Of a stretch of DNA of 64,000 nt, positions 2,935-44,397 are shown piece after piece (position 1 is the stretch's first letter; every line of letters begins with the position of its first letter). The notes below the pieces were generated by a model. It was not told the origin of the DNA. It saw only the letters and a program-made list of their open reading frames with translations, and ran no database searches. Position numbers and translations under genes: made by a program. The stretch comes from Pararhodobacter sp. (GTDB lineage Bacteria; Pseudomonadota; Alphaproteobacteria; Rhodobacterales; Rhodobacteraceae): assembly GCA_020832545.1 (NCBI GenBank), contig JAFIEK010000006.1, positions 1 to 64,000 of the forward strand, written 5' to 3'.

Positions 2935-3921
<987 letters not shown>

Positions 3922-3988: not shown

Positions 3989-6121
3989 TCACAGGCTGCA
4001 GGACACGCAGCCCTGCACTTCGGTTCCTTCCAGCGCGGTCTGGCGCAGGCGGATGTAATAGATCGTCTTGATGCCCTTTTTCCAGGCATGGATCTGCGCG
4101 CGGTTGATGTCGCGTGTCGTTGCCTCGGACGGAAAGAACAGCGTCAGGCTGAGCCCCTGATCAACATGCTCGGTCGCCGCCGCATAGGTGTCGATCACCG
4201 CCTCGGGGCCGATCTCATAGGCGTCGCGATAGAACTCAAGGTTGTCGTTGGTCATGAACGGCGCGGGATAATAGACCCGGCCGATCTTGCCTTCCTTGCG
4301 GATCTCGATCTTTGACGCAATCGGATGGATCGACGAGGTGGAGTTGTTGATATAGCTGATCGATCCGGTCGGCGGCACCGCCTGAAGGTTGCGGTTGTAA
4401 AGCCCGTGTTCGATTACCGCCGCGCGCAGTTCCGCCCAATCGTCGCGCCCCGGCAGCGCCACCCCCATCCGCGCAAACAGGTCGCGCACGGTGTCGGTTT
4501 CCGGCAGCCAGTCGCGGGTGGTGTATTTGTCGAAATAGCTGCCGTCAGCATAGGTCGACTTCTCGAACCCCGCAAAGCTGCGCCCCTTTTCACGCGCCAG
4601 CGCGTTCGAGGCGCGGATCGCGTGGTATGCGATGGCGGCGAAATAGCAGCGCGTGAAATCAATCCCTTCCGCGCTGCCATAATGAATACGCTCACGCGCC
4701 AGAAAACCGTGCAGGTTCATCTGGCCCAGCCCCACCGCATGCGCCTCGTCATTGCCGCGCCGGATGGAGGGCACGCTGTCGATGGCAGACATCTCACTGA
4801 CCGCCGTCAGCGCCCGGATCGCCGTTTCCACCGTCGTGCCAAAATCCGGCCCGTCCATGGTGGTGGCAATGTTCAGGCTGCCCAGATTGCATGAGATATC
4901 GGTGCCCATGTGGCTGTAGCTCAGATCATCATTAAACTCTGACGCCTCGTTGACCTGCAAGATCTCGGAACACAGGTTCGACATGCTGATCCGCCCGGCG
5001 ATGGGGTTGGCGCGGTTCACCGTGTCCTCGAACATGATATACGGATAGCCGCTTTCAAACTGGATCTCGGCCAGCGTCTGAAAGAATTCCCGCGCGTTGA
5101 TCTTCTTCTTGCGGATGCGCTTGTCGCCCACCATCTCGGCGTATTTCTCGGTGATCGCGATCTCCGAGAAGGGCACGCCGTAAACCTGCGCCACATCATG
5201 CGGCGAGAACAGGTACATATCGGCATTCTCGCGTGCCAGCTCGAAGGTGATATCGGGGATTACCACGCCCAGGCTGAGGGTCTTGATGCGGATCTTCTCA
5301 TCCGCATTCTCGCGCTTGGTGTCCAGAAATCGCAGGATATCCGGGTGATGGGCGTTCAGATAGACCGCGCCTGCGCCCTGACGTGCGCCCAACTGGTTGG
5401 CGTAACTGAAGCTGTCTTCAAGCAGTTTCATCACCGGAATGACACCCGATGACTGGTTCTCGATCCCCTTGATCGGCGCGCCATGCTCACGGATGTTGGT
5501 CAGCATCAATGCCACGCCACCGCCGCGTTTGCTCAGTTGCAGCGACGAATTGATGCCCCGGCCAATCGATTCCATATTGTCTTCCAGCCGCAGCAGAAAG
5601 CATGAAATCAGCTCGCCGCGCGATTGCTTTCCCGCGTTCAGGAAGGTCGGCGTTGCGGGCTGGAAGCGGCCTGCGATCATCTCGTCCATCAACCGCATCG
5701 CCAGCGCCTGATCGCCGCGCGCCAGCGCCAGCGCGACCATCACCACCCGGTCCTCATAGCGTTCCAGATAGCGGTTTCCGTCGCGGGTTTTCAGTGTGTA
5801 GCTGGTGTAATACTTGAACGCGCCAAGGAAGGTGGGAAAGCGGAACTTGCGGGCAAAAGCGGCCTCCCAGATCGCGTGCAGAAATTCGCGCGGATATTGC
5901 GCCAGCACATCGGCCTCGTAATAGCCTTCATCGACCAGATAGCCCAGCTTTTCATCCAGCGAATGGAAGAACACGGTGTTCTGGTTGACGTGTTGCAGAA
6001 AATACTGCCGCGCCGCCTTGCGGTCGGCGTCAAAGCGGATGCGGCCCTCGGAATCATAGAGGTTCAGCATCGCATTGAGCGCGTGGAAGTCCATCGCAGG
6101 GTTCAGGCCGCCGTCGGGCAT
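3989..6121 (-). CDS. nrdE: Class Ib ribonucleotide reductase, alpha (catalytic) subunit
   Basis: NrdE is the 710-residue catalytic subunit that reduces NDPs to dNDPs. The radical-bearing active-site loop is present as NLCSE with Asn382, Cys384 and Glu386. The C-terminus ends CVSCSL, the swinging dithiol (Cys705, Cys708) that is re-reduced by NrdH. The nucleotide-site region [18 protein letters not shown] is well conserved. The short N-terminus without an ATP-cone is typical of class Ib, so no dATP activity control through a cone is expected. The start codon lies inside the 3' end of nrdI (19-base overlap), which implies translational coupling in nrdHIEF. Confidence 0.97.
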
Positions 6122-6522
6122 GTCATCTCTCTCCAGAATGTCGTCAGCCCGGCGCGGATGCGGGCAATGTCGGTCTCGGTTCCGGCCAGCTCAAAACTGT
6201 AAAGCCACGGGATCTGGCACTTTTCGGCAATGACCCGCCCCGCGAGGGCATAGGTCGCGCCAAAGTTGCGGTTGCCCCCGGCGATCACGCCGCGGATCAG
6301 CGCGCGGCGCATTGGGTCGTTGAGAAAGCGGATCACCGGCTTGGGCACCGCGCCCCGGCCTTCGCCATCGGCAAAGGTGGGGCAGATCAGCACGAAAGGC
6401 GCATCGGGGCGGGGCATTGCCGTGTCAGGGCCGGTTGGAATGCGCCGGGCGGGCAGATCAAGCGCTGCCACCAGTCGCGCGGTGTTGCCTGAGCGCGATG
6501 AGTAATAGAACAGCCCGCTCAT
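6103..6522 (-). CDS. nrdI: NrdI flavodoxin-like RNR maturase
   Basis: NrdI is a small flavoprotein that supplies the oxidant for building the Mn2-tyrosyl radical in NrdF. The sequence starts [14 protein letters not shown], the FMN phosphate-binding loop of flavodoxin-like proteins, and has the downstream [15 protein letters not shown] loop that is diagnostic of NrdI. The frame is open upstream to 6570, but Met at 6522 is chosen because the protein should begin directly with the first beta strand and because nrdH ends just 5 bases upstream. The product is 139 residues, normal for the family. It overlaps nrdE by 19 bases. Confidence 0.93.
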
Positions 6523-6527
6523 GGCAT

Positions 6528-6749
6528 TCAGGCCAGACGGCTGATCAGGTCTGGCCGGAACCCCGCCCAATGCGACGCGCCCGCCACAACGACCGGGGCC
6601 TGCCGGTAGCCCATTTCTGTGACCTGCGACAGGGCGGCGTCGTCCAGCGTCAGGTCGATCACCTCAAAATCAAGGCCGCGCGCGGTGAGCGCCCGGGTGG
6701 TGGCCGTGCACTGCACGCAGGCCGGTTTGGAATAAACGGTGATGGTCAT
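6528..6749 (-). CDS. nrdH: NrdH glutaredoxin-like electron donor
   Basis: NrdH is a 73-residue redoxin that reduces the NrdE C-terminal dithiol and is itself reduced by thioredoxin reductase. The CVQC active site (Cys11, Cys14) and the C-terminal GYRQAPVVV region with the WAGFRPD motif are characteristic of the family. The ATG at 6749 is preceded on the minus strand by AGGGGA at a normal spacing, so the longer open frame reaching 6854 is rejected. It is the first gene of the operon. The untranslated leader in front of it contains the cobalamin riboswitch. Confidence 0.94.
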
Positions 6750-6874
6750 AGCTTTCGTCCCCTGTTCTCTAATTCTGCCGGGCAGGGGGCACGAGGCTGG
6801 CGGCAGGCCAGATGGTCTGCCGACACTCACACGCTCCCCAAGGCCCACCGCCAATGGTCGTCGTCGCCTGCTCT

Positions 6875-7030
6875 GGCAGGTTTCCTGGCTCGCGGATCAT
6901 CGCTTGGCTGGCCTTCCCGGGGCGCTCCCCAGTGGCATTTCAGCGTCGCTCACCACTTACAGTTGCGGGGGCAGCGCCGGATTCTCACCGGCTTCCCTTT
7001 CACCCGCGACACGAGTCGCAGGCACCAGAA
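6875..7030 (-). promoter_or_regulatory. Cobalamin (AdoCbl) riboswitch controlling nrdHIEF
   Basis: Read on the minus strand, the leader has all landmarks of a B12 riboswitch in order: GGTGCC near 7021-7026, the GGGTGAAAGGGAAGCCGGTG block, GAATCCGGCGCTGCCCCCGC, AACTGTAAG, the B12 box GCCACTGGGG near 6935, and the closing P1 segment CCAGGAAACCTGCC ending at 6875. Between this aptamer and nrdH there are about 125 bases that include a hairpin at 6802-6821 (GGCAGACC pairing with GGCCTGCC with one mismatch) and a small inverted repeat at 6775-6785. These are candidate expression-platform elements. B12 riboswitches are known to repress B12-independent isoenzymes, including ribonucleotide reductases, when cobalamin is available. 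Confidence 0.93.
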
Positions 7031-7038
7031 CAAACTGC

Positions 7039-7068
7039 ATATTGGGGGTGGGGGGTAGATCTTGTCAA
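7039..7068 (-). promoter_or_regulatory. Predicted sigma-70 promoter of nrdHIEF
   Basis: On the minus strand TTGACA (7063-7068) is followed after 18 bases by CAATAT (7039-7044). Transcription would begin around 7032, which is where the cobalamin aptamer starts. The agreement between the two independent signals supports the call. The other side of the region up to 7130 holds only the tail-to-promoter gap after sbcC. Confidence 0.6.
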
Positions 7069-7130
7069 TATGTGGATTTGGCGGGGTGACGATTTCTTTG
7101 GTAACGCGGCCGAGGGGTGCTCTTTTTGCC

Positions 7131-10100
7131 TCAGCCCGGCCCGCGGGCTTCGACATGGCTGCCCGACAATCCCTTGCGGATGTAGAACCCGTTTGGAATG
7201 GCTTCCTGCACCAGCGGGACGTGTGATATCAGCCCGACGGCGCGGTTCTGGCTGACCAGTGCGTTCAGAACCTGCAAGACCTGATCCAGCGTCCCCGAGC
7301 CGTTTTCGGTATCAAGGCTGCCGAACCCCTCGTCAATAAAGATCGTGTCCAGCCGCACCTTGCCGCTTGCGCTTTCCACAACATCGGCCAACCCCAACGC
7401 CAGAGCCAGCGCGGCGATGAAACTTTCGCCGCCTGACAAGGTGGTGGTTGGCCGGGATTTGCCGGTGAAGAGGTCGAACACCTGAATCCCCAGACCCCGG
7501 CGGCCCCGGCCTGCCCCCTCGCCGTCGCGTTCCAGCCGGTAGCGGCCCGAGGTCATGGGGCCAAGGCGCAGGTTGGCGGCCTCCAGCACCCGGTCGAACA
7601 TCGTGCCGATGGCGAAGGTTTCCAGATCCAGCTTCTGCGCGTTGGTGCCGTTCACCAGCGCCGCCAGCAGGCGCAGCGGCCCCGAGGCGGTTTCGGCCTC
7701 ATCAAGGCGGCGCAGCGTGTCGGCCAGATTGCCTTGCAGGCGCGTCAGATGATCGCGGCGGCTGGTGGCAAGGATGCGCTGCTCGGTCGCAGCACTCTGG
7801 GTATCAGTGGCCGTGTCGAGCTGCGCGCTCAGATACGCCAGATCGGGGCGGGTCAGCCCGTCGACCGCTGCCGCTGCCGTGTCGGCGGCCTCTGTCGCAA
7901 TGCCAAGTTTGCGGCGATGATCCTCAACCGTCCGGCGATCCGCTTCGAGGGTTTCGATGGCAGGTTTGAGGGCGCGGAATTCCGCCTCGCTCAGCCCCGC
8001 CCGTTCCAGCCGGTCCTTGAGCGCGGCAACGGCTGTCTGATGGCGCTGCGTGCAGGTCGCGAGTGCTGCTGCGGCGGCTTCATGCTCTTTATGCGCCGCA
8101 ATGGCAGCTTCGCGGCTGGCCCGTGCTGCCGTTTCCGCCGCCGTTCTCTGCGCCTCAGCGTCCGCAAGCGCCTTTGTCGCGGTGGCACGGGCCGCTGTCA
8201 GGGCATCCGGGTCGCGCAAGTCATCGGGCACCGATGACAGCATCTCGTCGCGCCGCGCGGTCACGCGCGCGGTCTCTTGCTGGCTTTGTGCGACGGCGTC
8301 GCGCTGCGCGTCGCGCCGGGCCTCGGTGGCTGCGATCTCGGCGTCCAGCTGGTCAATGGCGGCCTCTGCCGCTGCGATATCGGTCTCAGGTCCAAGGGCG
8401 TCAAGCGCCTGCACCTCAGCCGCGATCTTGTCGGCGAGAGCGGCGCTGCTTTCGTCCGGTGGGACCAGCAGGGCAAGCCGGCCCTTGCGTTCACGCAGGG
8501 TGCTGGTGGTTCCGGCCAGCGCCTCTGCGGCTGCGCGCGCTGTGCTGTCGGCGGATTGCCACGCGGTTTTGGCGGTGCGGAACGCCTGATCAAGACCGGC
8601 ATGTTCCTGTGTGGCCGTTGCGGGGGCGGGGTGGTCGGTCGCGCCGCAAACCGGGCAGGGGGCACCGGGCGCAAGTTTCGCGGCGAGGTGATAGGCCTGC
8701 GCTGCGGTGAGGGCGCGCTCGGCCTGCTGAAACCCTGCAAGGGCGGCCTCGGCCCGCTGTGTCGCCGCCTCCAGTGTGGCGGTATGTGCCGCATGGGAGG
8801 CCTGCGCGCTCTGCACGTCCTGCGCGGCCTTTTCATAGCTCTGCGCAGCGGTGAGGGCGGCGGCAAGGCTGGCACGGCGCGCGGCCGTCGCGTGGCGCTG
8901 CCCTTCCGTCTGACGGGCGGTTTTCAGCTCTTCGGCCCGTGCGCGGCGGGTCTCAAGCAGGGCCGTCAACTGCTGCTGCGTGGTCAGGTGGGCCTGATTG
9001 GCCTGTCGCTCTGCTGTTGCCGCCGCAGCGACCATGTCCGAGATATCGGCGGCCTTGTGAAGCGCCTCGGCGTGGCGCTCAAAGGCATCAAGCTTGCGGC
9101 GCAGCGCGTCCAGCTCGCCCGCCCGTTCCATGATGGTGCTCAGCTCGTTGGCCGCTGCGCGGGATGCATCCTGCGCGCGCGCGTCAGCTGCCTGCGCCGC
9201 GCGCAACGTTTCGTTTGCTGCGGCCACGTCACGGGCGGCATCGTCCGCATATCGTTCGGTGTCTAGCAGCGTCTGCGCCCGCGCGGCCTGTGTCACCCGC
9301 TGCGCAAGCGCGTCCATCTTGACTGTCGCGGCCTGAAGCGTGGCAAGTTCCGTAGCTGCGGCCTCGGCATGGGCAAAGCGTGCCTCAATCGACTCGGCGG
9401 CTTTCAGCGCGGCTTGCGCGGCCTCGCAGGCTGCGCGGGCCTGCGCCTCGTGGGCTAGCTGCTGCGCAAGCTGCACCTCGGCGTCTTCGATCCCGGCATG
9501 CAAAGCCTCGGTGCTTTCAAACCCCTCCGCTGCAAGCTGGCGGGCGCAGAGCGTGCGTTCCTCGCGCACATGGCGCTCGGCGGTTTCGGCCTCGGATTTC
9601 AACTCGGCCATCAGCGACTGATACAGTGACACGTCGAACAATTCGCGCAGGATCTCCAGCCGGTCACGGGTCTTGGCGGAGAGAAAGGTTTCAAACCGGC
9701 CCTGCGGCAACAGCACGATCTGGCGGAACTGCTCGGGCCCATAGCCCAGCAGATCGGTGATGGCCGTATCCACCTCACGCACCTTCTTCTCGGCGATGAT
9801 CTTGCCGCGCGTGTCATCGGTGATGGTATCCGGCGCCATGCCGGTGGCGTTGAACAAATGCGCCTCATGCGGGCTGCGAGTCTCGCCCTCGCCGCGCTGT
9901 TTGGGGCGCATCTGCTCAGGCCGCCGCCAGACGACAAACCGCTGCCCGCCCACGTCGAACACAAACTCAACCTCGGTCTGCGCGCCCGGATCGGCATGAT
10001 CAGAGCGCAGCGAGGGGGCTTCCTGTTCGGATTTCGAAGGCTCGCCGAAAAGCGCGAAGGTCATGGCGCTGAACAGCGTGGACTTGCCCGCGCCGGTCTG

Positions 10101-44331: not shown

Positions 44332-44397
44332 TGGAACTTCCATATATTGATCGAGTGTTGACAGGACGTTACGATATATGGAATACAAGCGTCAACA
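44332..44397. promoter_or_regulatory. Nested inverted repeats in the IclR-linked divergent promoter
   Basis: TGGAACTTCCA (44332-44342) is an exact palindrome. TTCCATATAT (44338-44347) is mirrored by ATATATGGAA (44374-44383), and TGTTGAC (44356-44362) by GTCAACA (44391-44397). TGGAA-type half-sites are typical of IclR-family operators. The region separates the CoA-transferase and acyl-CoA dehydrogenase genes and would serve both. Confidence 0.55.

Follow-up and report, generated by a model that had tools for sequence, protein, structure and literature searches.

A predicted cobalamin riboswitch in front of the class Ib ribonucleotide reductase operon nrdHIEF in a Pararhodobacter genome and in many of its relatives

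A gene set for class Ib ribonucleotide reductase (RNR), nrdHIEF, was found on the minus strand of the window, by which we mean the whole 64,000-nucleotide (64 kb) stretch of Pararhodobacter sp. DNA that was analysed. Its leader contains a full-length cobalamin riboswitch aptamer, promoter hexamers and two sites resembling boxes for the repressor NrdR. The features are listed below in window coordinates, in the order in which they follow one another towards and through the operon.

7063..7078, no strand assigned: upstream NrdR-box-like site, 9 of 16 positions matching the consensus used; overlaps the -35 element
7063..7068, minus strand: -35 element TTGACA, read from the sequence; TTGAC in 53/53 riboswitch leaders
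7032..7047, no strand assigned: downstream NrdR-box-like site, 11 of 16 positions matching the consensus used; overlaps the -10 element
7039..7044, minus strand: -10 element CAATAT, read from the sequence; weak (3 of 6 to TATAAT), position conserved
6858..7044, minus strand: cobalamin riboswitch aptamer, full length (RF00174, 136.7 bits, E 2.7e-34, model positions 1-189 of 189)
6838..6857, minus strand: conserved hairpin after P1 with loop C-GGNGG-G (CGGTGGG at 6850-6844); CGGNGGG in 53/53 leaders, stem supported by RNAalifold
6758..6791, minus strand: putative ribosome binding site (RBS) sequestor hairpin, CCCCUG (6788-6783) with CAGGGG (6764-6759); not significant in the window sequence alone
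6528..6749, minus strand: nrdH, ATG at 6749 (TIGR02194, 96.1 bits)
6103..6525, minus strand: nrdI, start position approximate (PF07972; TIGR00333, 131.5 bits)
3989..6121, minus strand: nrdE, class Ib alpha subunit (TIGR04170, 1213.9 bits)
2935..3915, minus strand: nrdF, class Ib beta subunit (TIGR04171, 476.2 bits)

The gene set downstream of the riboswitch encodes a B12-independent RNR consisting of NrdH, NrdI, NrdE and NrdF, and the dedicated class Ib models all matched, as expected from the first-pass annotation, which had named the operon from the sequence alone. The aptamer lies on the nrdH strand, the final base of the RF00174 match being 109 nt away from the nrdH ATG. The nearest long open frame 5' of the leader stops at 7131, so the leader is intergenic. 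In a covariance-model scan the aptamer scored far above the RF00174 gathering score (31.5 bits), and nothing else in the 64 kb exceeded an Rfam threshold. A complete set of B12-riboswitch landmarks, including the B12 box, had been read from the minus-strand leader in the first-pass annotation, and the strong covariance score over all 189 model positions agrees with that reading. The span then given, 6875-7068, leaves out the last 17 bases of the aptamer match and the expression platform (6857-6747). Judged by its sequence, this is a typical RF00174 riboswitch, which would be expected to bind cobalamin.

The same genome (4.37 Mb, 102 contigs, 99.93% complete) encodes the B12-dependent NrdJ whose presence elsewhere had been predicted from the leader: a long NrdJ of 1221 aa was identified at L012:6016-9678 on contig C34 (NF005736, 2224.8 bits), together with a second, shorter class II RNR of up to 781 aa at L011:7518-9860 on contig C91 (TIGR02504, 596.1 bits). 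PF02867 matched only NrdE and these two NrdJ proteins in the whole genome, so that no class I alpha-subunit gene beyond that of nrdHIEF was found.

With 150 of 305 first-look candidates scored, at least three cobalamin riboswitches were found genome-wide. The second (L010:8128-8328) precedes a TonB-dependent receptor which, with the frame read by eye, resembles btuB, and the third (L009:8799-9000) precedes a small frame without a Pfam or NCBIfam match. CobN, CobJ/CbiH and CobA were taken as three markers of de novo corrin/cobalamin synthesis; none had a match over cut-off in the genome, with one 66-bit CobJ/CbiH match below it. A PduO-type adenosyltransferase was encoded in the genome. On these markers, the simplest reading is that the organism is probably a B12 auxotroph that salvages B12. 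Since the three synthesis markers were without a match and the adenosyltransferase was present, the switch probably reads imported B12. MetE had no match in the genome. MetH was found as two adjoining pieces, frames of 377 and 928 aa (G000:C6:11006-14586), with one TGA inside the first match.

Related loci, numbered with the prefix L, were retrieved with the window NrdI through six peptide patterns, which gave 78 loci in 75 genomes, a sample of near relatives and not a census. RF00174 was found in 52 of these 78 nrdI loci, with scores from 96.4 to 145.1 bits; each aptamer has the orientation of nrdI and lies immediately 5' of nrdHI, and seven of the 52 outscored that of the window. Judged from these sequences, many members of the lineage share this layout.

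The promoter proposed in the first-pass annotation, TTGACA-N18-CAATAT, is in place, with hexamers at 7068-7063 and 7044-7039 and 18 bases between them. A consensus promoter scan, which needs 4 of 6 matches, listed none at the nrdH leader; CAATAT shares only 3 of 6 positions with TATAAT. All 53 riboswitch leaders, that of the window among them, have TTGAC 5' of the aptamer. In 52 leaders it precedes the first base of the aptamer match by 22-25 bases, and the hexamer lying 18 nt beyond TTGAC reads CAATAT in 24 and CTATAT in 7 (31/53). The weak -10 element is supported by this conservation of TTGAC and the hexamer among the leaders of relatives. If these hexamers are used, the first transcribed base would be expected at about 7036-7030, on the 5' edge of the aptamer.

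NrdR boxes were sought with acaCwAtATaTwGtgt, taken as the NrdR box consensus. With 20 of 32 matches to this consensus, the two sites at 7078-7063 and 7047-7032 (31 bp apart) formed the top pair in the 64 kb. An operator-like inverted repeat at 44337-44384 of the window, TTCCATATAT...ATATATGGAA, was among the next-best pairs of the same scan. Of 77 related loci (the 78 minus L088), 63 have as their top-scoring box pair the one that precedes nrdI. Among the 52 loci with a riboswitch, the position of the pair relative to the aptamer is -32 to -35 in 41; the best pair was located at -64 to -67 in nine others (seven of Paracoccus, two of Salipiger) and at -46 in two Gemmobacter loci. Such a pair was also present in leaders without a riboswitch, for instance L055, L057 and L080. 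One copy of the nrdR gene (159.8 bits) was identified in the genome. From the boxes and this gene, an NrdR layer at the promoter is probable, in which NrdR would bind the two sites. NrdR control of nrdJ was considered and set aside: the top-scoring site in front of the long nrdJ matches 12 of 16 positions and its partner only 7.

Past the aptamer, the motif CGGNGGG was found in all 53 riboswitch leaders, N being A in 38, C in 10 and T in 5, and compensatory changes support four of the five base pairs in the hairpin that presents it (RNAalifold). The exact motif was present within 30 nt past two of nine other cobalamin riboswitches of the same genomes, and some others were similar by eye. Pairing of the GGNGG loop with the aptamer CCCCC was dismissed, since none of the 53 leaders has G at the variable position, which is always A, C or T. 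A kissing-loop contact was sought by eye between L5 and the loops of the expression platform, and convincing complementarity was absent.

Applied to the whole platform, RNAalifold returned the GGNGG hairpin only and the arms of the sequestor were not aligned, so an accessibility test was used in its place. The CAGGGG arm overlaps the Shine-Dalgarno (SD) sequence AGGGGA (6763-6758). Across the 53 riboswitch leaders the mean unpaired probability of the SD region was 0.335, versus 0.484 in shuffles (p 3.1e-5). In 18 riboswitch-less leaders, a control set that omits L079, L081, L083, L084, L085 and L087 (no nrdH recognised by the pattern used) as well as L088 and L091, the values were 0.518 and 0.529 (p 0.38), and the two groups of leaders differed in SD accessibility at p 4.2e-4. 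Taken singly, the sequestor stem of the window was unexceptional, its best stem being reached by 30 of 100 shuffles; at most 5 of 100 shuffles reached the best stem in only 10 of the 53 leaders. The window SD in a 100-nt leader was more open than in shuffles (0.53 vs 0.33), and the folding z-scores were -0.58 and -0.16. In full-length folds the SD core was paired with or without 42 forced aptamer pairs and an ON state was not seen, so simple folding does not show a switch. A terminator-like site was not found on the minus strand at 6600-7200. Family-wide pairing close to the RBS and the absence of a terminator-like site together point to control by translation; the most likely output would be that the ligand-bound aptamer favours the hairpin hiding the nrdH RBS.

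Premature termination of transcription, intrinsic or Rho-dependent, might control nrdHIEF instead of RBS hiding. The Streptomyces nrdABS switch works on transcription, to judge from the title of Borovok 2006 (cited in PMC5962746), much nrdAB transcription in Propionibacterium acnes (P. acnes) seems to end ahead of the first gene in the account of PMC3848588, and the statistical weakness of the window stem would also fit. The lack of a terminator-like site in the interval above and the family-wide enrichment of RBS-proximal pairing speak against this alternative, which we regard as rather unlikely, and we keep hiding of the RBS as the preferred output.

The presence of the riboswitch was compared with that of the long NrdJ, whose status in the 75 genomes was taken from the matches listed, the completeness of those genomes not being given; two genomes (G031, G057) were scored as positive on partial matches. 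L088, without upstream DNA, was excluded from the genome counts (64 + 10) and from the NrdR-pair count; L073 and L086 belong to one genome, which was counted once, and L079/L087 and L081/L085 are likewise one-genome pairs. Among the matches listed, the riboswitch was present in 51 of the 64 genomes with a long NrdJ and in none of the 10 without (Fisher p 1.6e-6, kinship ignored); the p value was 2.1e-4 when the group without a long NrdJ was restricted to the six genomes that are Rhodobacterales by title. Kinship of the genomes weakens these statistics. The association is one-sided: among the matches listed, a riboswitch was never found without a long NrdJ, and 13 of the 64 genomes, 9 of them titled Paracoccus, had a long NrdJ and no riboswitch. 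That any NrdJ would explain the riboswitch was ruled out, because three of the ten genomes without a long NrdJ (those of L023, L027 and L058) had, among the matches listed, the short form only and no riboswitch. The short class II RNR (the 781-aa frame in L011) is widespread in related genomes, and its presence alone does not track the nrd riboswitch.

An NrdE tree was built with 74 rows, 73 of which had both traits, five loci giving no NrdE row of 400 aa. On this tree, at least 9 changes are needed to account for the riboswitch and 6 for the long NrdJ. In five independent tree pairs differing in NrdJ, the riboswitch was concordant in 3.3 on average and never opposite (p 0.25); with five pairs only, p 0.05 is out of reach.

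Two further observations were made on the retrieved loci. The records that hold L081, L085 and L084 bear the names Bacillus subtilis SK6B4 and Microbacterium sp. Se63.02b; these nrdI loci are like those of Pseudochrobactrum, and in the NrdE tree L081 falls with that genus, which suggests that the records may be mislabelled or mixed assemblies. In addition, a second cobalamin riboswitch was found head to head with that of nrdHIEF, on the minus strand, at L048:3142-3335, L050:3143-3355, L061:3156-3354 and L089:3150-3355; the one in L089 precedes frames that read, by eye, as a B12/cobalt uptake operon (BtuF- and BtuC-like).

The co-occurrence counts also bear on the possibility that the role of the switch is one of dosage or metal economy, without any isoenzyme swap, class Ib being the aerobic workhorse whose production B12 merely trims. 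The 13 of 64 genomes with a long NrdJ and no switch (among the matches listed) and the second class II enzyme of the Pararhodobacter genome itself would be compatible with such a role. The riboswitch was nevertheless missing from 10/10 genomes without a long NrdJ (among the matches listed), which fits an isoenzyme swap better, and we consider economy alone an unlikely explanation.

Traces of the riboswitch were sought in leaders without an aptamer by comparing the stretch from the boxes to the RBS in the 18 riboswitch-less leaders with the 53 intact riboswitches, using 100 shuffles of each. In 11 of the 18 (L017, L021, L023, L024, L031, L038, L044, L052, L056, L068 and L080), no shuffle reached the observed local score, the margin being narrow in L024 and L068. 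The remnant score was reached by one shuffle in L057 and in L058, by two in L039 and by four in L020; L055 (14/100), L027 (47) and L033 (90) gave no remnant signal. The clearest remnant was that of Paracoccus caeni (L023), with a score of 64 versus a maximum of 35.5 in shuffles. Its leader retains a mutated B12 box and the hairpin that follows, and shares promoter and boxes with that of P. amoyensis (L019), which has an aptamer and a long NrdJ. Some remnant-bearing genomes still encode a long NrdJ; NrdJ loss is therefore not the sole route to decay. RF00174 at E up to 5 gave no match in the nrdH leaders of 16 riboswitch-less loci scanned, L038 and L052 being among the riboswitch-less loci scanned at the gathering score only.

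That the window aptamer is itself an irrelevant relic, with class Ib under NrdR alone, is very improbable: the decayed remnants of relatives, the NrdR-like pair that persists where the aptamer is gone and the unexceptional expression platform of the window could be read that way, but the aptamer scores within the range of its 52 relatives, both forms of NrdJ are encoded in the genome, and switches that have been lost fall below detection in the scan of 16 loci at E up to 5.

We therefore favour, with high though not full confidence, a riboswitch on nrdHIEF through which the class Ib enzyme would be made when B12 is short, with a hidden RBS as output, NrdR as a second layer and external B12 as the signal. 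When B12 is scarce, the class Ib enzyme would be made; when B12 is present, nrdHIEF would be turned down and the cell would use the B12-dependent counterpart. Acting at the box pair over the promoter, NrdR would probably tune transcription to the deoxynucleotide pool, and the B12 sensed would probably come from outside the cell. The main interpretation of the first-pass annotation, a class Ib RNR repressed by B12, is supported by these sequence comparisons; the NrdR-like boxes and the expression platform are additions to it.

More tentatively, and as a possibility that we hold to be less than even, the Rhodobacterales nrdHIEF leader may be a standing two-input device, with NrdR acting at the promoter and the riboswitch in the mRNA, in which the riboswitch persists only as long as the genome retains the long NrdJ and is otherwise eroded where it stands, the promoter staying intact; the GGNGG hairpin would then be a working, undescribed part of the switch. 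If so, the leaders would form a readable fossil record of lost B12-dependent DNA precursor synthesis.

Members of this lineage trade B12 with algae. With the riboswitch before nrdHIEF, class Ib RNR in a common lineage would come under the isoenzyme-swap rule that holds for cobalamin riboswitches, and in a probable B12 auxotroph the enzyme for DNA precursors would be chosen according to the B12 that other organisms provide. The many close natural variants, with the switch present, absent or decayed, could be used to gauge the value of the switch.

The Streptomyces genome with a riboswitch at nrdABS also has class II nrdJ and nrdR. The class Ia nrdABS operon of Streptomyces has a cobalamin riboswitch (Borovok 2006, cited in PMC5962746) and is like the window in that the riboswitch precedes a B12-independent RNR; it is unlike it in enzyme class (Ia vs Ib), in its transcriptional output and in belonging to actinobacteria. 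For P. acnes, the account in PMC3848588 gives annotated cobalamin riboswitches before nrdAB and nrdDG, not nrdRJ, and a predicted nrd-box that overlaps the promoter of nrdAB; a riboswitch on a B12-independent RNR plus an nrd-box makes a comparable two-layer arrangement. In contrast to the window, these are class Ia and III enzymes, nrdAB has a single nrd-box instead of a pair, and transcription seems to stop in the leader (PMC3848588). The nrdDG genes of Desulfovibrio vulgaris and Desulfuromonas, also B12-independent, carry a B12-element, and B12 is predicted to inhibit them in genomes with an NrdJ, but they encode a class III anaerobic enzyme and belong to delta-proteobacteria (PMC545781). 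The cobalamin riboswitch of metE follows the same logic for methionine synthase isoenzymes (PMC4428469, PMC2211319); the enzyme pair is a different one, and the window genome is without a MetE match. A large comparative survey with 15 Rhodobacterales has an isoenzyme category, and its main text contains neither nrd nor ribonucleotide (PMC3766115). The rule that the first-pass annotation had called known for B12-independent isoenzymes thus has precedents in class Ia and class III, as described in these sources (PMC545781, PMC3848588, PMC5962746). A description of the class Ib case was not found in an open-access literature search, and older B12-element surveys may list one. The window therefore presents an ordinary mechanism on a target class, Ib, not found described, under a rule itself known for class Ia and III, and the new points are its wide distribution in the lineage, the probable NrdR layer and the decay of the switch in relatives.
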